Both the position numbers and the translations under genes were made by a program. The notes beneath the pieces are model-generated. The model saw only the letters and a list, made by a program, of their open reading frames with translations. It was not told where the DNA came from and did not search any database. From Thermotogae bacterium (lineage in GTDB: Bacteria > Thermotogota > Thermotogae > Thermotogales > DSM-5069), in NCBI GenBank assembly GCA_003641785.1, contig QNAO01000005.1:1-13803 (forward strand): DNA of 13,803 nucleotides, in the 5' to 3' direction. This document shows, piece by piece, positions 1 to 13,803 of the stretch. Within the stretch, counting starts at the first letter, position 1. The number at the start of each line of letters is the position of its first letter.

Positions 1-858
1 GTTTCCAAGGTTCTCCGGTCAAATTTAATAGATTATTTTGAAGCCAACAAATCCTCGCTGAAAGCCATCTTAGAGAAAGCCAGTCATGCGATGCGAGCGC
101 GCGAAGCGGCCAGAAGAGCCAGAGAGCTGGCTCGAAGGAAAAGTGCAATGGAAAGCGCTTCACTACCAGGCAAACTCGCCGATTGTGTAACGCATGAAGT
201 GGGAAAAGCAGAGCTATTTATAGTCGAAGGAGATTCAGCAGGCGGATCCGCGAAACAAGCCAGAGATAGGTATTCTCAGGCGATTTTGCCGCTTAGGGGT
301 AAAATTTTGAATGTGGAAAAGTCATCAATGGTGAAACTTTTAAAAAACGAACAGATAAGCGATATTATAGTAGCTGTTGGCACAGGCATTGGAGACAATT
401 TCGATATCTCGAAAATTCGATATGGCAAGATTATTATCATGACCGATGCGGATACTGATGGTGCCCACATAAGAACGTTGCTCCTTACGCTTTTTTACAG
501 GTACATGAAAGATCTTATAGTCAATGGAAAGATTTTCATAGCAGTGCCGCCTCTTTACAGAGTATCTTATTCAAAAAACGCTCGCTATGTCTACGATGAT
601 GTTGAGTTGAAAAAAGTTCTTGCAGAGATTGGAGATAGAAAAGTTGAAATTCAGAGATACAAGGGTTTGGGAGAAATGAATCCGGAGCAATTGTGGGAAA
701 CAACGATGAATCCCGAAACGAGGAAGCTCATCCGAGTCGATATAGAGGATGCCGAAGAAGCAGACACGTTGTTCAGCTTGCTTATGGGAGAAAGTGTGCC
801 TGAGCGACGGAGCTTTATCGAAAGGCACGCTCTCAAAGCTACAAATCTTGATGTTTAA
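1..858 (+). CDS. gyrB: DNA gyrase subunit B, C-terminal part (5' end outside window)
   Basis: GyrB is the ATPase subunit of DNA gyrase, which introduces negative supercoils with GyrA. The reading frame is open from base 1, so 285 residues are visible and the N-terminal GHKL ATPase and most of the transducer domain lie upstream. The TOPRIM domain is clear: EGDSAGG begins at visible residue 76 (base 226), with the catalytic glutamate, and the metal-binding DADTDGAH is at residues 149-156. Other GyrB signatures are [10 protein letters not shown] (97-106) and the C-terminal [18 protein letters not shown] (218-235). The short form without the large insertion found in E. coli GyrB fits most bacteria. 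ParE is the main alternative, but the C-terminal signature favours GyrB. The stop codon overlaps the start of the next gene by eight bases, linking it to the division genes downstream. Confidence 0.96.
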
Positions 859-1366
859 TTCGCAGAGATTCTTGTTCGCCTTAACATTGATTTGTTTGAC
901 AGCTTTCGCAGCCTATCTGATCAAACTCAATGACTTTGGCACCACCAGTACTTTAAAGGTTAATTCCGCAGATAGGCTCGCTTTGGTAAACTACAAAGAA
1001 AGGTTGTGGTGGATTTCTACAAAAGGTGAACTGCTTTATTCGGCTAAACCCGAAAGTGTTTTGTCAATGGCTTTCGTGAGTGGCGTATCTGTAAACGATT
1101 TGAAAATAGATCCAGCCCAACTGAGACTTATTGAAAGCCTTCGAGAAGTCATTACAGATAACAAAATCGTGGAAGTTGATTTGCAGGAAAAGTGTGTCGT
1201 TACAGTGAAGGGAATAGTGATATACTTTGATAAATGGGAAGATATCATTGCAAATTTGTTATCACTTGATTCAGCAGTGAGCAGGATGGAACCACGATCA
1301 GAGTATTTCTTGACTGCAAATGGTGTTATTCTCAAACTCAGGGGTGGTCAAATTGGCACGGACTGA
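851..1366 (+). CDS. Small bitopic membrane protein, probable reduced FtsQ/DivIB
   Basis: A 171-residue protein with a very short cytoplasmic end, one transmembrane helix (about residues 7-25) and an extracytoplasmic domain. It sits directly before ftsA, the place ftsQ occupies in many division clusters. The text from about residue 40 resembles the end of an FtsQ POTRA domain and the following beta domain: [19 protein letters not shown], then KGELLYSA (58-65), a helix rich in leucine (89-101), [15 protein letters not shown] (117-126), a second helix (129-140), and [12 protein letters not shown] (152-163). Only about 15 residues separate the helix from this region, so a complete POTRA domain cannot be present. 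FtsQ links the early division ring to FtsL/FtsB and septal synthesis. The ATG at 851 was chosen because the membrane helix follows at once; it has no good ribosome binding site, so translation probably depends on coupling to gyrB. The assignment is inference from position and fold pattern. Confidence 0.6.
1341..1349 (+). promoter_or_regulatory. Shine-Dalgarno site for ftsA
   Basis: The bases GGGGTGGTC (preceded by CA) resemble the anti-16S consensus and end three bases before the TTG at 1353, with the GGGGTGG core about five bases away. This site decides the TTG start over an in-frame ATG at 1320, which has no such site and would add 11 unconserved residues. Confidence 0.65.
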
Positions 1367-2624
1367 AACATATGCGGCAATTGACATCGGTTCTCATCTG
1401 ATCAAGGGGGTTGTTGTTTCGGAAAAATCTGATTCTTGGGAGTTGCTCGCATATTCAACGGTAAAAAGTCGAGGAATTGATTCAGGAGAAATTAAGGACG
1501 CGGTAGCTTTTAGAGATAGCATATCAAAGCTTCTGACAAATCTCGAGGAGCAACTTCCTGGTGTGACAAGAGCGAATTTTGTTGTCTCGACGAATTGCGG
1601 GGCATTTGGTTTGGAAAGCCTGACAGAAGAGATGGTTATATCAGAGACTGAGAAGAAGATCATCGGCCCAGAGGAAGTTGAAGAACTCAAGTCTCGCGCC
1701 CTCAAAAAGGAGGAGCATGAAGAAAACCTTAAATTAGTGATGCATGTTTATCCGAAAAAGTACCTTATCGACGACACAAAAGTTGTTTCTAACCCGATAG
1801 ACATGCCCGCGAATAAGCTGGCAGTGGAACTAACAGCAGTTGTGATTGACAAGAGTTTGAGCAACGTTTTTGATTATTCCCTTGATGACATTTTGCCAGT
1901 GGAACCAGAGGTTTCGATGTCATCGTTAGCTGCTTCAGAAGGGGTGCTGACCACTACCGAGAAAGACAGCGGTGTTTGCGTCTTAGATCTTGGTTATGGC
2001 TCTTCCACACTGATCGCGTACTTTACCGGCATTCCAATCAGATTGATAAAGATACCCCTTGGTACAAAGCACATAATAAAGGATATAGCAACAGTCCTAA
2101 GCACCTCTCTGGAAGAATCTGAGAGGCTTCTGAAAACCCATGGTAGCGCCATGTATCAAGATATTGGAGAAAGTCCTTTTGACGTTGAGTACAAAGGACT
2201 TGATGGCCGAACCTCTAAAACTGTAAAAATGGAGATTTTGGCGAGAATTGTTCATGCGCGTTTGCGAGAAATCTTTAACAAAGTTCGTAGAGCCTATAGA
2301 GAAGTGGAAGCTGAAGTTCCTGAGTTCAGAGAAATGGGAATTCCTGGTGGTCTTGTGATCACTGGTGGTGGTGCTAAGATTCCACGACTCATCGATCTAG
2401 CTCTGGACATTCTTAGAAAACCTGTGAGAATTGGAACGTTTGGCACTTCTTCAAATGAAACATTATTAGGTGCTGATGAAATAGTAGAAGACCCGGTTTT
2501 TTCAGCGGCCCTTGGAAGCATCTTTTGTGTGGAAAGTGTAGAGCAAGAGGAAGCACTCGCAGCAAGGAGAAAGACAGGAGGCTTTTTTAGTAAGCTTATT
2601 GAGGTTTTCAGGAATCTCTGGTAG
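1353..2624 (+). CDS. ftsA: Cell division protein FtsA
   Basis: FtsA is an actin-fold ATPase that tethers FtsZ to the inner face of the cytoplasmic membrane and recruits later divisome proteins. The protein has 423 residues from a TTG start, close to the usual length. The phosphate 1 loop AAIDIGS is at residues 8-14, phosphate 2 LDLGYGSST at 211-219 and the adenosine motif ITGGGAKIP at 336-344. The region of about residues 60-165 corresponds to the FtsA-specific 1C (SHS2-like) insertion. The last 14 residues, GFFSKLIEVFRNLW, form an amphipathic helix that serves as the membrane-targeting sequence. It overlaps the FtsQ-like gene by 14 bases and is 20 bases from ftsZ, so the three are likely made together. 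The overall text matches my memory of Thermotoga maritima FtsA closely. Confidence 0.96.
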   Translation: MARTETYAAIDIGSHLIKGVVVSEKSDSWELLAYSTVKSRGIDSGEIKDAVAFRDSISKLLTNLEEQLPGVTRANFVVSTNCGAFGLESLTEEMVISETEKKIIGPEEVEELKSRALKKEEHEENLKLVMHVYPKKYLIDDTKVVSNPIDMPANKLAVELTAVVIDKSLSNVFDYSLDDILPVEPEVSMSSLAASEGVLTTTEKDSGVCVLDLGYGSSTLIAYFTGIPIRLIKIPLGTKHIIKDIATVLSTSLEESERLLKTHGSAMYQDIGESPFDVEYKGLDGRTSKTVKMEILARIVHARLREIFNKVRRAYREVEAEVPEFREMGIPGGLVITGGGAKIPRLIDLALDILRKPVRIGTFGTSSNETLLGADEIVEDPVFSAALGSIFCVESVEQEEALAARRKTGGFFSKLIEVFRNLW

Positions 2625-2630
2625 TTTATT

Positions 2631-2642
2631 GGGAGGTTGATG
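2631..2642 (+). promoter_or_regulatory. Shine-Dalgarno site for ftsZ
   Basis: GGGAGGTTGATG is a strong match to the anti-16S tail and lies just before the ATG at 2645. It is among the best ribosome binding sites in the window, consistent with FtsZ being needed in larger amounts than FtsA. Confidence 0.75.
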
Positions 2643-2644
2643 AT

Positions 2645-3712
2645 ATGCCCTTTGAAATAGGAAGACCAGGTGAAGTCGCTAAGGATAGATACCAGGCAAA
2701 AAGAGTGCCAGTTATAAAGGTGATAGGAGTCGGCGGGGCTGGCAACAACGCCATTAATCGAATGGCAGACGCGGGTATTCATGGAGTAACATTTGTTGCA
2801 GTGAATACGGATGTTCAAGTGTTGGAAGTGAACAGAGCAGATTTGAAAATCCAAATTGGCAGTAAGATAACTAAAGGACTTGGAGCCGGTGGAAACCCGA
2901 AAATAGGTGAAGAAGCTGCCATGGAAGACAGGAGAAACATTCAAGAGATGCTTGAAGGCACAGATATGCTGTTTATTACAGCGGGTTTTGGTGGCGGTAC
3001 AGGCACGGGTGCAGCTCCCGTTATCGCCGAAATTGCCCGAGAACTGGGAATTCTCACTGTAGCTGTTATAACCACTCCTTTTTACTTCGAAGGGAATGCG
3101 AGATGGAAAGTCGCGATGGAAGGTCTCAAAAACCTTAGAGATAAAGTAGATACTCTTATAAAGATCTCCAACAACAAGCTCCTGGAAGAACTCTCATCAG
3201 ATGTCACGGTTGTTAACGCGTTCCTTAAAGCCGATGAAACGTTGCACCAGGGCATCAAAGGTATTTCGGAATTGATCACAAAGCGTGGCTACATCAATCT
3301 GGACTTTGCAGATATTGAGTCGGTCATGCGGAACGCAGGTGCAGCGATGCTTGGTATTGGCATAGGAAAAGGTGAAGACAGAGCTGTAACGAGCGCACGG
3401 AAAGCTATGGAAAGTAAGCTTATGGAACGCCCTGTGGAAAATGCCCGCGCTATAATACTCAACATATCCGCTCCCCCATCAGTTCAGTTGAAAGAGATGC
3501 GCAGGGCAGCGGCTATTATACGCCACAATTGCAGTGAGGATGCTGATGTCAAGTTTGGTTTGGTAATAGACGACGAGATCGCCGACGACGAGATCAAAGT
3601 GACAGTAATCGCAACAGGTTTTGACGAAGAAGACCGCTTTCTGTTCCCGGAAAACGATATTCCCGCGATATACAGGTTTGGCCTGGAGGATCTCGTTGAT
3701 GAATTCGAATAA
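2645..3712 (+). CDS. ftsZ: Cell division protein FtsZ
   Basis: FtsZ is the tubulin-like GTPase that polymerises into the cytokinetic Z ring. The protein has 355 residues. The nucleotide-binding start [13 protein letters not shown] is at residues 28-40, the tubulin signature GGGTGTG at 116-122 and the catalytic T7 loop NLDFAD at 218-223, so GTPase activity should be intact. The globular core ends near ATGF (323-326). The conserved C-terminal peptide that binds FtsA follows as [10 protein letters not shown] (338-347), leaving only about 11 residues between them. Most FtsZ proteins have a disordered linker of tens of residues at this point. The gene overlaps the following pilB-type gene by 14 bases, which couples their translation. 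Confidence 0.97.
3569..3595 (+). repeat. 12-bp direct repeat in the 3' part of ftsZ
   Basis: GACGACGAGATC occurs twice (3569-3580 and 3584-3595), separated by GCC. It encodes the doubled acidic text DDEI-A-DDEI at residues 309-316, in the last strands of the FtsZ core. As I remember it, T. maritima FtsZ has a similar doubled acidic motif, so the protein pattern may be old while the exact nucleotide identity is local. Confidence 0.8.
3685..3690 (+). promoter_or_regulatory. Shine-Dalgarno site for the pilB-type gene, inside ftsZ
   Basis: GGAGGA lies eight bases before the ATG at 3699 and within the last codons of ftsZ. It decides this start over an upstream in-frame ATG at 3621, which would add 26 residues read entirely from within ftsZ. 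Confidence 0.7.
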
Positions 3713-5393
3713 CTTTCGGCGATACAAGCGCCTTGGCGAAATTCTGCTTGAGAAGGGGATCATCACAAAGCAACAGTTAGCCTCAGCGCTTGAAATTCAA
3801 AAAGAAAGCAGAAAAGCACTCGGCGAGATTCTTGTAGACATGGGACTTGTAACATGGGAACAGATAACAGAAGCTGTTGGGGAGCAATACGGTATTCCTG
3901 TGTTGAAAGACCCTCCCAGTACTATACCCATCGAAATTCTCAAAGCGATTCCTAGAGCGTTAATCGATGAACTGCGAGCGATTCCTGTTGACAAAGTTAA
4001 CGATAAGATAGTTGTTGTCACGGACAGCGTTTACAATCTGTCGAGAATAGTTAGCGAAGTAAGATTTCTCACAGGTCAAGAGCCCATCATTTATCTGGCA
4101 AGTCCCGCTCTTTTTTCCATTCTCTACTCTCAACATGTAGAAGGGGCATCGATGGCTTTGGCGGATGAAATTCCACTACAACTTGAGCTACCAGAAGAAG
4201 AAGTAGAAGAAGAATTAGTGATGGAAGCTGAAGCGCCGGTTGTGAAAATGGTGAATGCCATAATTCAAAAGGCGGTTACCATGGATGCCAGCGATATACA
4301 CATAGAGCCCTTCAGAAATTATGTGCGCATTCGGTACAGAGTTGATGGACTTCTGAGACGAATTATGGATTACCCAAAGGTGCAACACGCACCGGTTGTG
4401 ACGCGGATAAAAATCATATCTGGCCTTGATATTTCTGAAAAGCGCCTTCCCCAAGATGGAAAATTTTACATGAATATACAGGGAGAACAGTACGATTTCC
4501 GTGTGTCAACAATGCCGTCAGTGCACGGTGAAAAGATTGTGATGAGGATTTTAAAGGTTTCAGGAGCATATAAACAACTTGAAGAATTGGGGTTCAGTGA
4601 CTACAATTACAATCAAATTTCCAGACTTTTGAAAAGGCCCAATGGCATCATTCTTGTCACGGGACCGACCGGAAGTGGGAAATCGACAACTCTTGTGGCA
4701 ATCCTGAATAAACTTAAAGATATTACAACTAATATAATTACAGCAGAGGATCCCGTTGAGTATACAATTGACGGCGTCACTCAATGTCAGGTGAATCCAG
4801 AAATAGGTTTAACCTTCGCGCGATATTTGCGTTCTTTCTTGAGGCAGGATCCCGATATCATCATGATAGGAGAAATGCGCGACAAGGAAACGGCAAATCT
4901 CGCCATAGAAGCTTCTTTAACGGGCCACTTGGTTCTGAGCACACTTCACACGAACAGCAGTGCAGCGGCTATCGATAGAATGGTGAATATGGGCATAGAT
5001 CGTCACATGATAACTTCTTCCCTTATAGGTGTCATAAGTCAAAGACTCGTTAGAAAGCTGTGTGAGTCGTGCAGAGTGAAAGCTGAATTACGAGAAGAGT
5101 TTCACGGATTATGGAAAGAGGTCTTTCCGGATATTGATCCGGTGGAGTACTCTGCTGGCGAAGGTTGCATAGAGTGCGGCGGAACAAGTTACAAGGGCCG
5201 TGTTGCAATTGGTGAAGTTTTGATAGTAAACGATGATATAAAGGATATCGTTATATCCGGAGCAGGAGAACGTCAAATCTACGACCTGGCGCTTCAAAAG
5301 GGAATGAGACCAATGTTCATAGATGGTTTTGAGAAAGTTCTCAGAGGTGTGACGTCTTTTGACGAAATTCTCAGGGTGACAACTGCTCCATGA
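3699..5393 (+). CDS. GspE/PilB-type secretion and pilus assembly ATPase
   Basis: A cytoplasmic hexameric ATPase of the type II secretion / type IV pilus extension family, which powers assembly of pilin-like filaments through a membrane platform. The protein has 564 residues. The N-terminal part (about 8-145) is an MshEN/T2SSE_N domain beginning LGEILLEKGIITKQQL. A short acidic linker (about 163-178) follows. The ATPase core starts at VKMVNAIIQKA (about 182) and has DASDIHIEP (196-204), Walker A GPTGSGKST (322-330), Walker B PDIIMIGEMRD (385-395) and STLHTNSSAAAIDRM (414-428). Four cysteines at 455, 458, 490 and 493 form the zinc site typical of PilB/GspE rather than PilT. No pilin, platform protein or prepilin peptidase is nearby, so the machine it serves is unknown. 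PilB and GspE cannot be separated from this sequence alone. Confidence 0.93.
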   Translation: MNSNNFRRYKRLGEILLEKGIITKQQLASALEIQKESRKALGEILVDMGLVTWEQITEAVGEQYGIPVLKDPPSTIPIEILKAIPRALIDELRAIPVDKVNDKIVVVTDSVYNLSRIVSEVRFLTGQEPIIYLASPALFSILYSQHVEGASMALADEIPLQLELPEEEVEEELVMEAEAPVVKMVNAIIQKAVTMDASDIHIEPFRNYVRIRYRVDGLLRRIMDYPKVQHAPVVTRIKIISGLDISEKRLPQDGKFYMNIQGEQYDFRVSTMPSVHGEKIVMRILKVSGAYKQLEELGFSDYNYNQISRLLKRPNGIILVTGPTGSGKSTTLVAILNKLKDITTNIITAEDPVEYTIDGVTQCQVNPEIGLTFARYLRSFLRQDPDIIMIGEMRDKETANLAIEASLTGHLVLSTLHTNSSAAAIDRMVNMGIDRHMITSSLIGVISQRLVRKLCESCRVKAELREEFHGLWKEVFPDIDPVEYSAGEGCIECGGTSYKGRVAIGEVLIVNDDIKDIVISGAGERQIYDLALQKGMRPMFIDGFEKVLRGVTSFDEILRVTTAP

Positions 5394-6595
5394 AATACTT
5401 TTCAAAAGATCCAGAAGAATGGAAAAAACAAGAGCAGGAGTTTTTAAAAAAAGAAAAGGAAAAGACCCGAAAATCAAGAAGGAGAGGCATAATGTTGCTT
5501 CTTGTTAATATTGCGATCGTTGCGATCGTGTTTCTTGGTTTGAAAATGTACTACTCACAATTCCCATCCTATGGTAGCTCATCAAGATATCAAATCTTAA
5601 TCAAGACACCAGACGCTTATGTTTCAGGCACACCGCTGGACGTTCAAGTAAGGCTTTACAACAACAATCATCAAGAGACTACAATGAAGATATCCAACTT
5701 TTCCATAATCATATTTTCTCCTGAAGGCAAGGACATTTACAGATTTTCACAAGATGAACCTATCGAAGCCGAGTTTGACGCTTTTTCAAGTCGATTGCTT
5801 TTTCGTTTACTCAACGAGGTAGAACTCTCGTCATTGGTGGCAGGAACGTATAAAGTTGCCGTGTCGCTTGTGGCAGATGGACAAGATATACACAGCGAAA
5901 AGACGTTCACTGTCTTGGAGTGCTATGATATTGCGCTTGATGGTCTTCTTGAATTCTATGAACCTGGCGAGACAATGCACATAGAACTTCGTATTGTCAA
6001 CAACACAGCGTCTGTCAAAGATTTGAGGATTACAGGATTCAAATTTTCTGTGAAACACGATGATGAAATCCTTTGGCAAGATGAGGGTGTTTTCAATTCC
6101 GTGTGGGAAAAGGTTGGGGTAGGCGATTCAGTCCATCTTCAAAAAGACATTGAACTGAAGCTGAACACTCCTGGCGCTTGGGCTTTAAACGTGGCAGTCA
6201 CAGTAAACGGAGTTGATGTCTCAAAAAGTGTTCCTGTTGTCTGCATATCTGAACCCACAACAGACTTAAAGGATGTAGAGGTTTATACGGATATTCCAAA
6301 TCAGTTCTTCGTAGGAGACGATATCGAATTTTCTGTATACCTTCAAAACGCTTCGAACAGGGACATTTATCTTAAAATTGAACAGATGACTATTTCGATT
6401 TTGCCAACTCCGTTCTCTTCAGAAAGGCGGGGGTTCAGAATATGGCTTCAGCCATTTTCCCGTGTAGAGGTGTTCAGATTTCACCCGTGGAACAAGCAGG
6501 TGATCAGCAAGGCTGGTTCTTACAAGATGAATGTTTTTGTCAAAACTATTTCTGATGAAAAACTCTTTGAAACCAATATTCAAGTGCTTCAGTGA
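5390..6595 (+). CDS. Single-pass membrane protein with three Ig-like (BsuPI-like) repeats, function unknown
   Basis: A 401-residue protein I do not recognise as a named family. Residues 1-33 are highly charged and cytoplasmic, with many lysines and arginines just before a transmembrane helix at about 34-52. The remainder is outside the membrane and divides into three similar units of about 105-110 residues: roughly 67-177, 178-288 and 293-401. Each carries an early strand of the form G-polar-hydrophobic ending in paired asparagines or NAS (SGTPLDVQVRLYNNN, PGETMHIELRIVNN, VGDDIEFSVYLQNAS). Each then ends with a G-x-Y/W-hydrophobic strand (AGTYKVAVSL, PGAWALNVAV, AGSYKMNVFV). This pattern suits beta-sandwich domains of the BsuPI/Ig kind. 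ATG overlaps the TGA of the ATPase gene, and AGGGTGA lies ten bases upstream. A role in an envelope complex with the ATPase is only inference. Confidence 0.85.
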   Translation: MKYFSKDPEEWKKQEQEFLKKEKEKTRKSRRRGIMLLLVNIAIVAIVFLGLKMYYSQFPSYGSSSRYQILIKTPDAYVSGTPLDVQVRLYNNNHQETTMKISNFSIIIFSPEGKDIYRFSQDEPIEAEFDAFSSRLLFRLLNEVELSSLVAGTYKVAVSLVADGQDIHSEKTFTVLECYDIALDGLLEFYEPGETMHIELRIVNNTASVKDLRITGFKFSVKHDDEILWQDEGVFNSVWEKVGVGDSVHLQKDIELKLNTPGAWALNVAVTVNGVDVSKSVPVVCISEPTTDLKDVEVYTDIPNQFFVGDDIEFSVYLQNASNRDIYLKIEQMTISILPTPFSSERRGFRIWLQPFSRVEVFRFHPWNKQVISKAGSYKMNVFVKTISDEKLFETNIQVLQ

Positions 6596-6645
6596 TGTTT
6601 ATAATAACTCTTGAAAGTACCAGTTAAAACAGCAGATTTGTGGCA

Positions 6646-8982
6646 ATGCGCAGTGAGAGATCGGAGGTGCCCAAGATTAAAGTTTTAACGCTTGACCGCC
6701 TTGAATACGACCGTGTGCTTTCAGTTTTCGAGGCATTCGCGATGACGAAGAAGGGTAAAGCATTCATCAGGACATTAAGACCTCTCGACGATCCCTCAAA
6801 GGAACTCAACTGTGTGGAAGAAATGATTCTTCTGAAGCACAGTGGGATTGATATTATTCCAGACGACTTCACTTCTATAGATGTCCAGGATATCATCGAC
6901 AAGTTCGCGTACGAAAACGTTATGCTGAATCCCGAGGAGATACTACGTTTACTGAATGCGATGAGAACACTTGGTGAGCTAAAAAGAAGAACTGACAACA
7001 CTGAATTCCAGAATCTGCGGGAGATTTCTCAGTCATTTGCTAATTTCCGCAATTTGATGAAGCTCATTGAAAAATCTATCTCGAAAGATGGAACCGTGAA
7101 AGACTCCGCTTCGGAACGTCTTCAAAATATTCGAAGCAGAAAAAAAGAACTGAACAGGATTATACTAAGGCAGGTTGATAAATTCATAGGTTCAAACAGA
7201 AATTTGCTTCAGGATTCTGTATATGTTCTGCGTGAGGGAAGATATGTCTTTCCAATAAAAGCTAATTTCAAATCCCAAGTAAGAGGTATTGTTCACTCTT
7301 CTTCTGCTTCTGGCGCAACTTGTTTTATCGAACCTGAACTCTTCATACCGTTGAACAACGAGATGCGGGAGTTAGAGAGTAACGAACTTGCCGAGGTTAG
7401 AAAAATTCTCAGACAGATTACACTGGAAATATTCAACAAGCTTGATGTGTTAAAGAAAAACTTAGAACTCGCCGCGTATTTGGATTCAATACATGCACGC
7501 GCACTGTTCGCTCAAGCCTTTCACGCCCGTGTGGTGAAGCCAGCGAACGGCTTTCACTTGAAACTCGTTAATGCGAGACATCCTCTGATATCACCGGAAA
7601 ATGTTGTTCCGATAAATATTCATTTGCCTGAGAAAAAGCTTGGCGTGGTGCTGACAGGACCGAACACGGGTGGTAAAACCGTTACTCTGAAAACGATAGG
7701 CCTTTTTATAGTAATGATGATGAGTGGTTTTCCTCTTCCGTGTGACGAGGAAACAGTTCTGCCAAAGGTTACGAAACTGATAGTTGATATAGGTGATGAG
7801 CAAAGCATCGAGCAGAATTTGAGCACTTTTTCTTCGCACATCGCGAATATTGTGAATGGTTTGCATGAATCGGATCCAGAGACAATAGTTCTGTTTGATG
7901 AGCTTGGAGCAGGAACTGATCCTGTGGAAGGAGCGGCATTGAGTTTAGCCATTATAGAAGAACTCAAGAAGAAAAAGTGTCACTTCTTTGTTACCACACA
8001 TCTAACTCCTGTGAAGATCTATTCTGCAACAGATGATTTGCTCCTCAGCGCGTCCATGGAATTTGATTCTGAAACGATGAAACCAACTTATCGCATTCTC
8101 ATGGGTGTTCCTGGAGCGTCACACGCCTTTGAAATAGCTGAAAAAATGGGGCTTGACAAAGCGTTAATAGACAATGCGAAAAATTTCTTGAGCGCTGAGT
8201 ACTTGGACGTTGAAGGAACGATCGCAAAATACGAAGAAAAAGCCGCTTCCCTTCAGAAGAAGATAGAAGAGTTGAAACTTGAGAAGAAAATGTACGAAAA
8301 TATGAAAGAAGAATACGAGAGGAAACACGAAGAACTCAAAAGGAAGAGAATAGAGGAACTCGATGAAGATCTGAGAAGTATCTACGAATACATGAAGCGC
8401 GTAAAAAAAGATATTGATCAAGCGATACATGATATAAGGAAAAGAGACATCAAGGCTCTTCGACGCGCTTCCAGATCTTTCGAAAGTGAGGCTCGTCATA
8501 TCCGAAGCATTGACTTTCGCCGGGAGCGAGTTGAAGATTCAACCCAGAATGTTGAAATTGGCTGCACAGTAAGGCTAAAGAATGGCTCAGCTATTGGCAA
8601 AGTTATTGGAAAAAGGTCTGACAAGTACATTATCGATTTCAGCGGTGTAAGGATCGAAGCTTCGGCTTCACTTCTTCAAAGAGTGGAAAGAGTGCAAGAA
8701 AGTGCCTCTGATAATTACATGTACGCGCAGTTCTCCCCCATAGATAAACCCGAAATAGACATCAGAGGGCTCACTGTATCTGAAGCTGAGCCACTTGTAG
8801 AAGAGTTTATAGACAAATTGATTCTGTCCAGTTTCAATACTGGATACATTCTTCATGGTAAGGGCACTGGTAGACTCGCGGCGGGTATATGGGAGATTCT
8901 GAGAAAAAACTCACATGTTAAACGATATCGATTCGGCACCCCAAACGAGGGTGGTACAGGTGTGACGGTGGTAGAGGTATGA
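6646..8982 (+). CDS. mutS2: MutS2 family ATPase with C-terminal Smr domain
   Basis: MutS2 is a MutS paralogue that lacks the mismatch-recognition domain. It has been linked to suppression of recombination and, in Bacillus, to rescue of collided ribosomes. Counting from ATG 6646 it has 778 residues. Domains in order are the clamp/lever region (about 15-320), Walker A GPNTGGKT (338-345), Walker B and signature DELGAGTDPVEGAA (418-431), a long charged coiled coil (about 523-630), a small KOW/SH3-like domain (about 636-680) and a Smr nuclease-type domain with IDIRG (704-708) and HGKGTGRLA (737-745). All catalytic motifs appear intact. The start is uncertain. GTG 6640, ATG 6646 and GTG 6667 are in frame, yet the only good ribosome binding site points to an ATT at 6676. 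The gene begins 50 bases after the Ig-repeat gene and overlaps the next one by four bases. Confidence 0.94.
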   Translation: MRSERSEVPKIKVLTLDRLEYDRVLSVFEAFAMTKKGKAFIRTLRPLDDPSKELNCVEEMILLKHSGIDIIPDDFTSIDVQDIIDKFAYENVMLNPEEILRLLNAMRTLGELKRRTDNTEFQNLREISQSFANFRNLMKLIEKSISKDGTVKDSASERLQNIRSRKKELNRIILRQVDKFIGSNRNLLQDSVYVLREGRYVFPIKANFKSQVRGIVHSSSASGATCFIEPELFIPLNNEMRELESNELAEVRKILRQITLEIFNKLDVLKKNLELAAYLDSIHARALFAQAFHARVVKPANGFHLKLVNARHPLISPENVVPINIHLPEKKLGVVLTGPNTGGKTVTLKTIGLFIVMMMSGFPLPCDEETVLPKVTKLIVDIGDEQSIEQNLSTFSSHIANIVNGLHESDPETIVLFDELGAGTDPVEGAALSLAIIEELKKKKCHFFVTTHLTPVKIYSATDDLLLSASMEFDSETMKPTYRILMGVPGASHAFEIAEKMGLDKALIDNAKNFLSAEYLDVEGTIAKYEEKAASLQKKIEELKLEKKMYENMKEEYERKHEELKRKRIEELDEDLRSIYEYMKRVKKDIDQAIHDIRKRDIKALRRASRSFESEARHIRSIDFRRERVEDSTQNVEIGCTVRLKNGSAIGKVIGKRSDKYIIDFSGVRIEASASLLQRVERVQESASDNYMYAQFSPIDKPEIDIRGLTVSEAEPLVEEFIDKLILSSFNTGYILHGKGTGRLAAGIWEILRKNSHVKRYRFGTPNEGGTGVTVVEV
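6663..6669 (+). promoter_or_regulatory. Strong Shine-Dalgarno site near the mutS2 start
   Basis: GGAGGTG lies inside the reading frame, downstream of the usual-codon starts at 6640 and 6646 and covering the GTG at 6667. The only codon at normal spacing is ATT at 6676, six bases after the site. The site may mark initiation at ATT or may be a coincidence of coding for Ser-Glu-Val. Confidence 0.5.
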
Positions 8983-11027
8983 GATTTGTTTTTGCTCTCG
9001 ATATAGGTACCAGGAAGGTAGCCGGATTGCTGACTCAATATGACGGCGATGTTTTGAATATCATTGATGTGGAAGTTGCAGAACATCCCACAAGAAGTAT
9101 GATGGATGGACAGGTTCACGACGTTGAAAGTGTCGCTCGGGTTGTGAAACGTGTTAAAGACGCTCTGCAAGAACGGAATGAGATAGAACTGCGAGAAGCC
9201 GCTGTAGCTGTTGCAGGACGCTTTTTAAAGACATTTGTTGGTGAGTACGAAATGGATTTGAACAACGAAATTGTAGATGAAGCGAAGTTGATGGAATTGG
9301 AATTAAAAGCGATTTCGGATGCAACATCCCAGGCTGCGACTGAAGAGCTCTATTGTGTTGGCTATTCTGTACTTCAATACACTCTTGATGGACTGTGGAT
9401 AAGAAACCTTCTTGGACACAGGGGCAAGAAAGCCAGTGCCTCTGTTGTAGCCGCCATGCTTCCCGCTCAGGTAGTCGATGCTATCATCGCTGTTTTAGAA
9501 CGAAACAACATGAAGCCTTCCTTTATGACGCTCGAGCCAATTGCGGCTATGGAAGTTGCAGTTCCAGAAGAGATGAGAATACTGAATGTCGCGTTGGTAG
9601 ATATTGGAGCTGGCACGAGCGATATCGCAATTTCAAAAGCGGGAAATGTCCTCGGCTATGGAATGGTATCAACAGCTGGAGATGAAATAACAGAGTCGAT
9701 AGCTGAAAAATTTTTGCTTGATTTTCATCAAGCTGAAAGCGTCAAGAGACAGATTTTCTCGAATCAAAACAAGATCGAGATCTGCGATATTACAGGTCAT
9801 GATCAGACGATTTCCTTTGAGAGCGCATTAGAAACATGTCGCCCGGTAGTTGCTTCCATATCTAAAGAGGTTGCAAAGATAATTCTTGATATCAACAAAG
9901 GAAAACCAAGCGCAGTGCTCCTTGTTGGTGGAGGTGCAAGAGTTCCATCGTTTGTTAACGCAATGGCGCAGGAACTCGGTATTCCACAAGAAAGAGTAAG
10001 CCTCAGATCGGCAAATGATTTGAAACGCATTCAAGATCTTACGGGAAAAATCCAAGGAAGCGAATTTGTCACACCAGTTGGAATCGCTTATGCCGCGGCG
10101 AAAAGGATAGGCTCTGTATTCAACACTGTCTTCGTAAACGGCGAAAAAGTTGAAGTGTTGCGTCTCAATCACAAGCCAACAGTGCTGCAGGTTTTGATTC
10201 AACTGGGTTACGACTTAACTCAGATCGTGGGTAGACCTAAATCAGCTATCGTGTACGAATTAAATGGAGAGACAAAAATTCATCGAAGGGGTCTTTCTGG
10301 AGGTTCAGACGTCTTTGTGAATGGTATTGAGGCATCACTTCATGACACGGTTGACAACGGTGATGAAATAAAAGTCGTTTCGAAAAGTGATGATCAAACA
10401 GATGAGCTGAGAATACGAGACATAATAAAGCCTATTGAACTGATTCTGGAAGACATTGGTGAAACAGTTGAGTTCTATCCCACCGTAACTGTTGACGATG
10501 TCGAGGTGTCAAACTACGACTTGTTTGTTCAAGATGGAAACAAGATTGAGTGCAAAGTGACAGTTGATGAGATACAAGAATATCTCAAGGAAAGACTCGG
10601 CTATGTGTCATATGTGCTCAATGGAGAAAGAAGAAGTGAATGCAGGTACACGGTTCATTTTTCCGACAAAGATGTGGCTCCTGGAAGCAAAATCAAAGTG
10701 AGCCTTTGTCGGAAAAAAATTGCAGATATTCTACCCCCCAAGAAATCCATACGGATAACGTTCAACAACCGAGAGGTCAATTTAGATGGCGTTCGTGATG
10801 CAGTGCTCATCGATGACAAATACGTAGATGCGAACACTCCGCTCGAAGAAGGTATGAAAATCACTTTCCACAAAAGTGATTTCATCGTCGCAGACGCTTT
10901 GGCTCTTGAAGAAGTTTACATTTCAAAAGTGAAAGATTACACGCTTAAGCTCAATAACAAAACCGCTTTTTTCACAGATCCATTGAAAGATGGGGATGTT
11001 GTAATCTTTGAAACCAAAGTCGATTGA
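8979..11027 (+). CDS. FtsA/PilM-like actin-fold protein with C-terminal beta-grasp-like repeats
   Basis: A second FtsA-related protein, 682 residues, with ATG overlapping the mutS2 stop by four bases. Residues 1-380 are an actin-fold ATPase: phosphate 1 ALDIGTRKVAGLL (6-18), an FtsA-type insertion (about 70-180), phosphate 2 ALVDIGAGTSDIAIS (205-219), STAGDEITESIA (231-242), adenosine motif VLLVGGGARVP (313-323) and a final FVTPVGIAYAAA (363-374). The other 300 residues hold repeated strand pairs of the form V-x-V/L-N-G ... L-x-x-G-D-x-I-x-V, best seen at 445-466, 503-525, 545-575, 608-630 and 654-678. These resemble the ends of ThiS/MoaD-like beta-grasp domains. There is no C-terminal amphipathic helix, so it should not bind membrane as FtsA does. 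Similar long FtsA-like proteins occur in Firmicutes, to my recollection, without a firm role. Calling it FtsA would overstate what is known. Confidence 0.85.
   Translation: MRFVFALDIGTRKVAGLLTQYDGDVLNIIDVEVAEHPTRSMMDGQVHDVESVARVVKRVKDALQERNEIELREAAVAVAGRFLKTFVGEYEMDLNNEIVDEAKLMELELKAISDATSQAATEELYCVGYSVLQYTLDGLWIRNLLGHRGKKASASVVAAMLPAQVVDAIIAVLERNNMKPSFMTLEPIAAMEVAVPEEMRILNVALVDIGAGTSDIAISKAGNVLGYGMVSTAGDEITESIAEKFLLDFHQAESVKRQIFSNQNKIEICDITGHDQTISFESALETCRPVVASISKEVAKIILDINKGKPSAVLLVGGGARVPSFVNAMAQELGIPQERVSLRSANDLKRIQDLTGKIQGSEFVTPVGIAYAAAKRIGSVFNTVFVNGEKVEVLRLNHKPTVLQVLIQLGYDLTQIVGRPKSAIVYELNGETKIHRRGLSGGSDVFVNGIEASLHDTVDNGDEIKVVSKSDDQTDELRIRDIIKPIELILEDIGETVEFYPTVTVDDVEVSNYDLFVQDGNKIECKVTVDEIQEYLKERLGYVSYVLNGERRSECRYTVHFSDKDVAPGSKIKVSLCRKKIADILPPKKSIRITFNNREVNLDGVRDAVLIDDKYVDANTPLEEGMKITFHKSDFIVADALALEEVYISKVKDYTLKLNNKTAFFTDPLKDGDVVIFETKVD
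10311..11012 (+). repeat. Degenerate beta-hairpin repeats at protein level in the FtsA-like gene
   Basis: Five stretches of the predicted protein share a strand, an N-G or D-D turn, and an acidic G-D/G-N/G-S/G-M turn before a final strand: VFVNGIEAS..DNGDEIKV, VTVDDVEVS..QDGNKIEC, YVLNGERRS..APGSKIKV, VLIDDKYVD..EEGMKITF and LKLNNKTAF..KDGDVVIF. They are similar in pattern and not in DNA sequence, so any duplication is old. Confidence 0.6.
10658..10717. repeat. 14-bp perfect inverted repeat within the FtsA-like gene
   Basis: TTTTTCCGACAAAG (10658-10671) and CTTTGTCGGAAAAA (10704-10717) are exact reverse complements separated by 32 bases. Neither side is followed by a T tract in its direction of transcription, so it is not an ordinary intrinsic terminator. 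It lies about 310 bases before the convergent operon boundary. Confidence 0.85.
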
Positions 11028-11576
11028 TTAGAAAGGCTCTATTAAACCTGCCATAAAGCGAACTCTACCCATCAACAAGTCCACCGACACGAAGAGTTTA
11101 TCTATGAACTGTTTTCCTTGGGGAGGAGTAATGAAGAATTGTGCGCCGACACAAAGTGCTTTATAGAAATCAAATGTGCCCGAGAAGGGATACAGCATCC
11201 CCGCACTGAAACTAACACTTTGATAATTGTATTCTGCAGCAATACCAATCGCGAAAGACGTCTCCCATGAATCCGAAGTGTAGTTTCCACCCATGATGGC
11301 TAAGGCAGGTCCTATCTTGAAATCCTCAAGTGAATACAGCGGAATGACAGAGAATATGTCAATCTGGTAGAAATCCTTGGTAGTGGTAGAATCAGGAACT
11401 GTTTTACCGAGGTCAAAGTTCAGCCCTAAGTCAATTTTATAGTTTTGATCTACCAATCCCCCCGAGAGATTCCATCCTGTGATGTTTCCAAATATGAATC
11501 CACCACCTATCATCAATTCTGTTGCAAAGAGCAGTGAAGCGGATATCAACAGTGCCGTAATGAGTATCTTCCTCAC
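11028..11576 (-). CDS. Small exported protein, probable outer-membrane beta-barrel
   Basis: A 182-residue protein of unknown function. The first 18 residues are a typical signal peptide: MRKILIT, a hydrophobic stretch, and a likely cleavage site after LLFA. The mature part is rich in glycine, aromatic residues and alternating hydrophobic/polar strands, for example IGGGFIFGNITGWNLSGG (23-40) and VSFSAGMLYPFSG. The chain ends in phenylalanine (GLIEPF), as many outer-membrane barrels do. An envelope with an outer membrane or toga agrees with Thermotogales. The start is GTG, chosen because GAGGTG lies seven bases before it. It is last in the nucleoside-type ABC operon, 11 bases after the second permease, so it could be a pore or accessory for the same substrate; that is inference. 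Its stop codon directly abuts the stop of the gene on the other strand. Confidence 0.75.
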   Translation of the reverse strand: MRKILITALLISASLLFATELMIGGGFIFGNITGWNLSGGLVDQNYKIDLGLNFDLGKTVPDSTTTKDFYQIDIFSVIPLYSLEDFKIGPALAIMGGNYTSDSWETSFAIGIAAEYNYQSVSFSAGMLYPFSGTFDFYKALCVGAQFFITPPQGKQFIDKLFVSVDLLMGRVRFMAGLIEPF

Positions 11577-11583
11577 TAAAATT

Positions 11584-11589
11584 CACCTC
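11584..11589 (-). promoter_or_regulatory. Shine-Dalgarno site for the small exported protein
   Basis: On the minus strand this reads GAGGTG, seven bases before the GTG at 11576. It overlaps the stop codon of the upstream permease gene and settles the GTG start. Confidence 0.75.
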
Positions 11590-12541
11590 ACTTCTCATAT
11601 GGAACACCATCTGCGGCAGGAGGTCTCGTCCGTCCTATAAATCCAGCGACAACAACGAGGGTTACGACAAAAGGAAACATGTTAAAGAGCGGCTTCACAT
11701 TTGAAGATACATGAAGAAGCGGACTGCTCTGCAACTGATTGGCAAAAGCCTCAGAGAAACCGAATAGTAAGCTTGCCCACATGGCACCAACAGGATTCCA
11801 ATTTCCCAAGATCATCGCAGCCAAAGCTATAAAGCCTCTTCCGCCGGTCATTAATTCTCTGAAATTTCCCACCTCTCCGACGCTCAAAAACGCGCCACCA
11901 AGCGCGGCCATAACACCGCTCATCAACACGCCAAAGTATCTAACCATATGAACGTTCACTCCAAGCGTGTCCGCAGCTTCAGGGTTCTCTCCTACAGCGC
12001 GCATTCGCAGTCCAAGCTTTGTCTTGAATATAATGAACCAGGTCAACGCGACGCTTCCAAAAGCGATGTATATTAGCGGACTCAATGTTCCTATCGCATC
12101 TCCAATAAAAGGTATATTGGCGAGTCCAGGAATGCGGAACTCAGGTATTCTTCCAACGATATCTGTTTGACCGGGCTGCCCAAAAATTGGTTCCATTAAG
12201 AAACCGGTTACACCCTGCGCCAGCAGGATCAAAGCTGTTCCTGAGACTATTTGGTTTCCACACCATTTGATGCTTGCCCAAGCGTGCAGCCACGCCATGC
12301 CTAAACCGATAACTATCGCAGCAGCCACACCAATCCAGGGGTTACCGAGTGCAAAGGTGAACACAATCGAAAAAAAGGCTCCCATTAGCATTATTCCCTC
12401 TAATGCGATGTTCACCACGCCTGTTATCTCGCTGTAAACTCCACCAAGAGAAGCGAAGATGAACGGAGTTGCGGCTGTCAACGTGAGTTTATAAAACTGT
12501 GGATTTGTGAATATCTCATAAAGCGCCATTAGAAATCTCAT
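11588..12541 (-). CDS. ABC transporter permease, nucleoside/BmpA-type (NupQ-like)
   Basis: The second inner-membrane permease of a BmpA-type importer, 317 residues with about eight to ten hydrophobic segments. Family text is strong: GVVNIALEGIMLMGAF (41-56), the cytoplasmic coupling motif RAVGENPEAADTLGVNV (181-197), GGRGFIALAAMILGNWNPVG (233-252) and a C-terminal PYEK. Together these mark the BPD_transp_2 group that includes NupQ/YufQ. It would form a heterodimeric channel with the permease encoded just before it and be driven by the duplicated ATPase. ATG overlaps the previous stop by four bases and GGGTGA lies seven bases upstream. The substrate is probably a nucleoside. A riboflavin-type (Rfu) or other BmpA ligand cannot be excluded because the binding protein is outside the window. 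Confidence 0.92.
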   Translation of the reverse strand: MRFLMALYEIFTNPQFYKLTLTAATPFIFASLGGVYSEITGVVNIALEGIMLMGAFFSIVFTFALGNPWIGVAAAIVIGLGMAWLHAWASIKWCGNQIVSGTALILLAQGVTGFLMEPIFGQPGQTDIVGRIPEFRIPGLANIPFIGDAIGTLSPLIYIAFGSVALTWFIIFKTKLGLRMRAVGENPEAADTLGVNVHMVRYFGVLMSGVMAALGGAFLSVGEVGNFRELMTGGRGFIALAAMILGNWNPVGAMWASLLFGFSEAFANQLQSSPLLHVSSNVKPLFNMFPFVVTLVVVAGFIGRTRPPAADGVPYEK

Positions 12542-13575
12542 TGGCTTTTCACCCTTTTTCTTATGAGAACTGTCCTGACAATTCTATCCGCCGCGACCAG
12601 AAATATGACGATTCCCTGAACGATTATGATGATGTGTTTTGGCACGCCAACAAATTGCATCTCGTTAGAGCCCGTTCTGAGTGAGCCCATCAGAAGAGCG
12701 GCGAAAATTATTCCAATTGGATGATTTTGTCCTATAAGAGCAATTGAAATCCCATCAAAGCCTTTGCCCCCAGAAAGTGTTCCCAAGAATCTGTGATGAA
12801 CTCCCATAACTTCAAGAGAACCAGCAAGCCCTGCGAGAGCCCCACTAACAGCCATGGCCAAAATTATGTTTTGAGATATCTTTATTCCTCCATATTCAGC
12901 AGCGTATGGGTTGAATCCTGTTGCCTTTATTTCATAACCTTTGGTAGTTTTCTCAAGTATTATATACATCACAAAAGCAGCGAGAATTGCAATAAGAATG
13001 CCGGATGTCAGCTCTGTTGCCTGAACTGTGAGTAAAGGGGGAAGCTTTGCAGAAGGAGCTATCTCAGGACTCTTTGGGGTTCCCATCCCAACTGCCAGAG
13101 GAACCGTTACCATGTATGTGGCAAAATATTCTGCGATCCAGTTCAGCATTATACTGCTGACAACCTCGTGAGCACCTGTCTTCGCTTTCAAAAAACCAAT
13201 AATCGCCGCATACCCCGCGCCGGCGGCCATCCCTGCCAGCATCGTCAGTGGAATAGCTATTACAGCCGGCGTTGAACCCATGTTGATACCGACAGTGGTC
13301 GCCACAAGAGCGCCCATGATCATTTGCCCCTCAGCGCCTATGTTGAACAATCCGGCCCTGAAAGCGAACCCAACCGCGAGTCCGGTCAGTATCAAGGGGG
13401 TTGTCTTGACGATAGTCGTAGCCAGAGACAATTTGGAACCGAAAGCTCCGCGAATCAGCGCTTGATACGCGGTTATTGGGTTTTGCCCAATAAAAAGTAT
13501 CACCAGAGAAGCCAGCAGTAAGGCGATCACTACAGAAACGATTGGAACCAAGAATGCCCATAATCTACTTCTCAA
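12538..13575 (-). CDS. ABC transporter permease, nucleoside/BmpA-type (NupP-like)
   Basis: The first permease of the importer, 345 residues with many hydrophobic segments and a basic C-terminal end (RKRVKSQ). Recognisable family motifs are [20 protein letters not shown] (64-83), [18 protein letters not shown] (134-151), the coupling segment [17 protein letters not shown] and [19 protein letters not shown]. These match NupP/YufP-type subunits, which are longer than their NupQ partners. The start is TTG, overlapping the ATPase stop by two bases as TTGA, with AGGGGG eight bases upstream. Starting here gives the usual short basic N-terminus before the first membrane segment. It is followed by the second permease with a four-base overlap, so equal production of both is likely. 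Confidence 0.92.
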
Positions 13576-13803
13576 GACACATGCCCCCTGACCTCCTCTA
13601 ATCTATGACCAGCCATGAGCAAACCCACTTCCTCAATTGTGGTTTCTTGTGGCAGCACCTCTCCCATAATTTCTCCCTCATACATAACGATTATTCTATC
13701 GCTGAGTGTGAATATCTCTTCAAGTTCCATGGAAATCAGAAGTATTCCGACACCGGCATCTCTCAATTTCAGAATTGAATTGTGGATAAACTCGATCGCA
13801 CCA
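13572..13803 (-). CDS. ABC transporter ATP-binding protein, C-terminal end (NupO-like; 5' part outside window)
   Basis: The last 76 residues of a sugar/nucleoside-type ABC ATPase, open to the window edge. The visible text, [10 protein letters not shown] then [30 protein letters not shown] and a closing LMAGHR, matches the end of the second nucleotide-binding domain of the NupO/RbsA group, in which two ABC domains are fused in one chain of about 500 residues. The Walker motifs lie outside the window. At the H-loop position the text reads SMEL, with methionine where most ABC ATPases have histidine; degenerate second domains are known in this group. Its stop overlaps the permease start. It energises uptake through the two permeases. 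Confidence 0.9.
13584..13598 (-). promoter_or_regulatory. Two purine-rich ribosome binding sites before the first permease
   Basis: On the minus strand GAGGAGGT (13598-13591) is followed by AGGGGG (13589-13584). The second is eight bases before the TTG of the permease. The first is spaced for an out-of-frame ATG at 13582 that opens a five-codon reading frame (MCLEK). Confidence 0.55.

Follow-up and report, generated by a model that had tools for sequence, protein, structure and literature searches.

How much of the division protein FtsQ a cell needs is the question raised by a small gene on contig QNAO01000005.1 of Thermotogae bacterium (GenBank assembly GCA_003641785.1), of which positions 1 to 13,803 were analysed (the window). 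FtsQ is a hub joining early and late division proteins (PMC7614612). In E. coli its POTRA domain comprises residues 55-126 (PMC4643143), FtsQ depends on FtsK for its arrival at midcell and contacts it through POTRA (PMC7614612, PMC8998562), and the FtsB binding site lies around Y248 of the beta domain (PMC6134095). Before ftsA the window encodes a 171 amino acid (aa) protein in which a sequence-only reading had noticed a membrane helix and an apparent FtsQ beta domain, with about 15 residues between the helix and the strand that would end a POTRA domain, leaving nearly no room for POTRA. The gene is most probably (about 0.88) the FtsQ/DivIB orthologue of its lineage, cut down to membrane helix and beta domain.

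Fold and distribution of the short protein

The window protein is a member of the Pfam family DUF4894 (PF16235), whose title gives no function, with a match of 8.5e-29 across residues 46-164 and 100.9 bits against a curated cut-off of 28. Its AlphaFold model, built on a 12-row alignment, has a mean predicted local distance difference test score (pLDDT) of 87.2 and a predicted template modelling score (pTM) of 0.70. It consists of one N-terminal helix of the kind that anchors FtsQ/DivIB in the membrane, a linker of low confidence and a single alpha/beta domain whose first strand begins at residue 42. In relatives the best 19-residue hydrophobic window is likewise N-terminal, as judged by hydropathy only. 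When the predicted domain was compared with VIA-align it matched the FtsQ beta domain, as the sequence-only reading had supposed. Only 11 residues, close to the 15 first estimated, separate helix and strand, at the site where full-length relatives carry a POTRA (alpha) domain of ~60-70 residues, and that domain is missing here.

The gene belongs to a conserved family. A search with the window protein matched 36 of 61 genomes at E<=0.01, the window's own included, DUF4894 occurs in 80 of 103 Thermotogota genomes (63 above the curated cut-off), and an intact open reading frame (ORF) was read in 84. Of these 84, 36 had been chosen because a search had matched the gene; the remainder come from 48 loci fetched by the place of ftsA alone, which cover 47 additional genomes plus a repeat of G022. 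All 48 lie outside family f5 (families are numbered f1 to f11) and all have the ORF before ftsA. Given the genome matches, the spread of DUF4894 and these 48 loci, a chance ORF can be dismissed. Five more loci fetched in the same way, all f5 (L154-L158), have no FtsQ upstream of ftsA; in f5 a longer FtsQ stands behind gyrB instead (L106-L112, L154-L158). It is followed in some loci by what we take to be a RuvC-like gene, and ftsA lies elsewhere, behind a presumed thymidylate-kinase-like gene.

The short form occupies a clade of six families (f1, f2, f3, f8, f9, f11), and the longer POTRA-bearing form is found in five more basal families (f4-f7, f10), with f7 showing the canonical order murB-ftsQ-ftsA. 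The short form is not confined to the order of the window, for which it had been suggested. Among eleven named loci fetched by FtsA (L031-L041; Pseudothermotoga, Thermosipho, Fervidobacterium and unclassified metagenome-assembled genomes), ten carry the short form and only L040 the long one. The identity of the short FtsQ with DUF4894 also explains why the Thermotoga maritima control matches DUF4894 and neither POTRA_1 nor PF03799 (FtsQ_DivIB_C).

No second, full-length FtsQ turned up in the window's assembly, which is 71% complete, or in ten relatives of the same family, eight of them 99% complete, and PF03799 matched 0 of 103 Thermotogota genomes at E<=0.01 and 5 of 14 controls.

Descent from full-length FtsQ

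Profile-profile comparison links the short protein to FtsQ in two steps. The short set (63 rows, with genome G022 entered twice as L027 and L142) matched a set of 14 full-length Thermotogota proteins at 98.6% (E 1.2e-15), which in turn matched ten canonical FtsQ proteins at 94.7% (E 6.2e-8) and three of those ten at 91.2%; reversed controls gave 0.1-0.2%. The canonical set comprises E. coli FtsQ and nine ORFs that precede ftsA in loci of Verrucomicrobiota and Bacteroidota (16 outgroup loci read), these nine being assigned by position and by eye.

A hidden Markov model of the 14 full-length proteins (A7, 234 positions) matches 61 of 103 genomes. Nearly the whole profile is spanned in 16 of them, namely its own 14 members and the new cases G058 and G065, and the match in G046 is one fragment (positions 2-58). 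The other 44 belong to POTRA-less families (10 in f1, 14 in f2, six in f9, 14 in f11), and here the matches start at profile positions 80-102 in 34, at 149-172 in nine and at 56 in one. In the window A7 matches at 950-1330 with E 1.1e-7, covering only profile positions 92-229. From these start positions it follows that the short proteins correspond to the full-length protein minus its first folded domain.

In an RpoB tree of 30 Thermotogota with E. coli and a Verrucomicrobiota outgroup, f7, f5 and the pair f6 and f4 branch off in that order, followed by all POTRA-less rows as one clade with support 98/98.7. Taking the outgroups as POTRA-bearing, a single state change explains the loss (states were scored by the authors, outgroups and f4-f7 as POTRA-bearing, f2 and f11 as POTRA-less). 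The window's assembly and f10 yielded no RpoB; an FtsA tree that includes both shows the same division at the lower support of 82/91. The loss of POTRA maps to one branch, and the trees, the profile comparisons and A7 agree on descent from a POTRA-bearing FtsQ.

Competing explanations and the missing FtsK

Several observations weigh against this reading. No FtsQ sequence model matches the window protein: PF03799 is unlisted at E<=10, NCBIfam returned nothing (and among five relatives one meaningless weak row), and a sequence search of PDB gave three unrelated rows at E 1.1-1.4 for the window protein and no rows for full-length relatives. Compared directly with canonical FtsQ, the short set scores 2.6% (E 0.017) against the ten and 0.1% against the three, which is close or equal to what the reversed controls gave and amounts to no real signal. 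The lack of FtsQ-model matches and this low direct score speak for a rival reading, in which an unrelated small membrane protein took over the ftsQ position and acquired a similar beta sheet by convergence. A7 also leaves 42 genomes unmatched (20 of 20 in f3, all three in f8, 15 of 21 in f9, three in f11, one in f1); in these the gene is assigned from where it lies, from its length and, in part, from DUF4894. The FtsQ identity of the window protein rests on the fold and the full-length bridge, and replacement by an unrelated protein is considered the least credible of the alternatives. It is scarcely more plausible that the gene is a decaying remnant whose function was taken over elsewhere, leaving the beta domain to drift. 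Divergence within the protein family is high (16-44% identity) and at least 12 f9 genomes lack a DUF4894 match, but the ORF is intact at every locus fetched by ftsA place outside f5, overlaps both gyrB and ftsA in the window, and has a nearly constant length inside most families.

Unlikely, though less so than either of these, is that another protein provides the POTRA function in trans or that the domain survives too diverged to be detected. POTRA is a weakly recognised domain even where it is present. POTRA_1 reached E<=0.01 in nine of 103 genomes, two of them over the cut-off; two of the nine are f7 FtsQ ORFs and the other seven lie in frames of 699-845 aa, a length typical of Omp85-type proteins. 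Among seven full-length proteins scanned, two, both from f7, show POTRA_1 with scores that reach the cut-off or narrowly miss it, and two show PF03799 below its cut-off (L099, 0.0027; L100, 0.044). Taken by itself, the POTRA stretch of the full-length set gives no signal against its canonical counterpart (0.8%). With so few matches, POTRA in the full-length families other than f7 rests on the alignment and on the model of L040, in which the POTRA part has block pLDDT values of 62-85 and whose alignment holds no second POTRA-bearing row. The f11 proteins (L113-L118, L138, L153) also retain ~45 additional residues after the helix and ahead of the beta domain, and a profile of the whole f11 protein aligns with the full-length one along its entire length (97.9%). 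This stretch, which may be a POTRA remnant or a new insert, matches neither POTRA profile on its own (0.2% and 0.4%). The 11-residue gap of the window protein is too short for any POTRA, and no genome of the POTRA-less families has a separate match to the first 50 positions of A7.

Of 103 Thermotogota genomes, 102 give no match to FtsK_SpoIIIE, which matches 8 of 14 controls; for 19 of the 21 rows listed, scoring covered only the best 25 candidates. FtsA was found in 101 of the 103. The lone FtsK_SpoIIIE match, in G065 (f5), is weak at 25.6 bits and has a stop inside. The POTRA contact in Thermotogota therefore seems to be without an FtsK partner. A further point to be set against the reading is that FtsK is not found in the POTRA-bearing families either, this one weak match apart, and its loss thus cannot alone explain that of POTRA. 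Since f7, f5, f6, f4 and f10 keep the domain, the loss of FtsK may have permitted that of POTRA and did not force it.

The shortened FtsQ would still do the job of the beta domain, holding FtsB and FtsL, and via them FtsW and FtsI, at the septum. Recruitment by way of a POTRA-FtsK contact, as in E. coli, would not operate in this lineage, since the phylum lacks FtsK; the membrane helix, FtsB/FtsL or FtsA would then have to bring the protein to its place. Candidates for these partners were sought by neighbourhood. In G008 a 100 aa helix-plus-coil protein lies in the FtsL position between rsmH (MraW 1.3e-106) and a penicillin-binding protein gene (8.3e-30); DUF5408 (7.3e-7) is the strongest Pfam match to it, with DivIC and FtsL_2 below cut-off. 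A second small helix-plus-coiled-coil protein precedes an S-adenosylmethionine (SAM) methyltransferase gene (PF04445 2.2e-9 in L223), which is often followed by what we take to be a miaA-like gene, at 8 of the 17 loci read for DivIC-like matches (L160, L165, L220, L222, L223, L224, L227, L230), and may be FtsB/DivIC. Both assignments are tentative. The DivIC search itself matched 65 of 103 genomes at E<=0.01 (one over cut-off), mostly coiled-coil noise, and served for neighbourhood candidates only.

Gene layout and relation to known systems

The ftsQ candidate has a dcw-type placement, with ftsA and ftsZ following it as identified by Pfam on the window (Table 1). Its start is overlapped by the end of the GyrB-like gene and its end by the start of ftsA, and a gyrB-like neighbour is common to the loci of many relatives.

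Table 1. Features at the ftsQ locus of the window (positions within the 13,803 nucleotides)
Feature	Position	Strand	Details
GyrB-like gene (name presumed from motifs of the ORF), 3' part	91..858	+	ORF list; stop 856-858
POTRA-less FtsQ candidate (Pfam DUF4894), 171 aa	851..1366	+	ATG 851, TGA 1364-1366
N-terminal membrane helix, residues 4-30	860..940	+	AlphaFold secondary structure
Short linker, residues 31-41	941..973	+	pLDDT <50 at residues 30-36
FtsQ-type beta domain (predicted), residues 42-165	974..1345	+	AlphaFold, structural match, DUF4894 residues 46-164
ftsA	1353..2624	+	TTG start; Pfam FtsA 1.1e-22, SHS2_FTSA 4.9e-8
ftsZ	2645..3712	+	Pfam Tubulin 2.7e-48, FtsZ_C 1.5e-23

Further along, the window encodes a second FtsA-like protein of 682 aa (8979-11027, + strand; FtsA 7.1e-12, PilM_2 5.7e-9) with a C-terminal extension of ~300 residues, in which there is only a weak TGS match (0.095). 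Beside it lies a 182 aa ORF (11028-11576, - strand) whose start looks signal-like by eye and which matches nothing in Pfam at E<=0.1. In the Thermosipho metagenome-assembled genomes at L032, L036 and L037 a near-identical ORF (GHKPDSV...LTFRW), partly shared in L032, lies upstream of ftsQ at ~4060-4450 and is perhaps a repeat-borne or rRNA-derived artefact.

E. coli FtsQ (276 aa; 2vh1, 6h9o) has a POTRA domain, whereas the window protein is POTRA-less and PF03799-negative. DivIB, known from the Geobacillus beta domain structure 1yr1, has POTRA and in addition a C-terminal gamma domain (PMC3152878). The nearest precedent is Ct764, the proposed FtsQ of Chlamydia, which is likewise reported to be without an identifiable POTRA. 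It has a large periplasmic domain in which POTRA is unidentifiable by sequence and, unlike the window protein, is not shortened by a domain (PMC4643143). In Chlamydia ftsK is present and FtsA and FtsZ are missing, opposite to the lineage described here. Thermotogae were set aside as hard to place in PMC8871954. A POTRA-less FtsQ in Thermotogota was not found in the available parts of the literature, including PMC8871954, PMC7614612, PMC8998562, PMC4643143, PMC1845146, PMC6134095 and PMC3152878, and subscription papers may hold one. The fold, the position and the family are known; what was not found in print, within these sources, is an FtsQ made short by POTRA loss and traced along the tree.

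On balance the evidence leans towards a clade with a natural minimal FtsQ recruited without FtsK, in which POTRA proved dispensable and was cut away once, so that nature has separated the recruitment half of the protein from the half that binds FtsB/FtsL. DUF4894, on the predicted structure, is identified as the FtsQ beta domain, and a functionless Pfam family is thereby assigned a predicted function. Overall, a lineage without POTRA and without a found FtsK points to what may be the irreducible part of FtsQ, and offers a clean system for asking how FtsQ is recruited.
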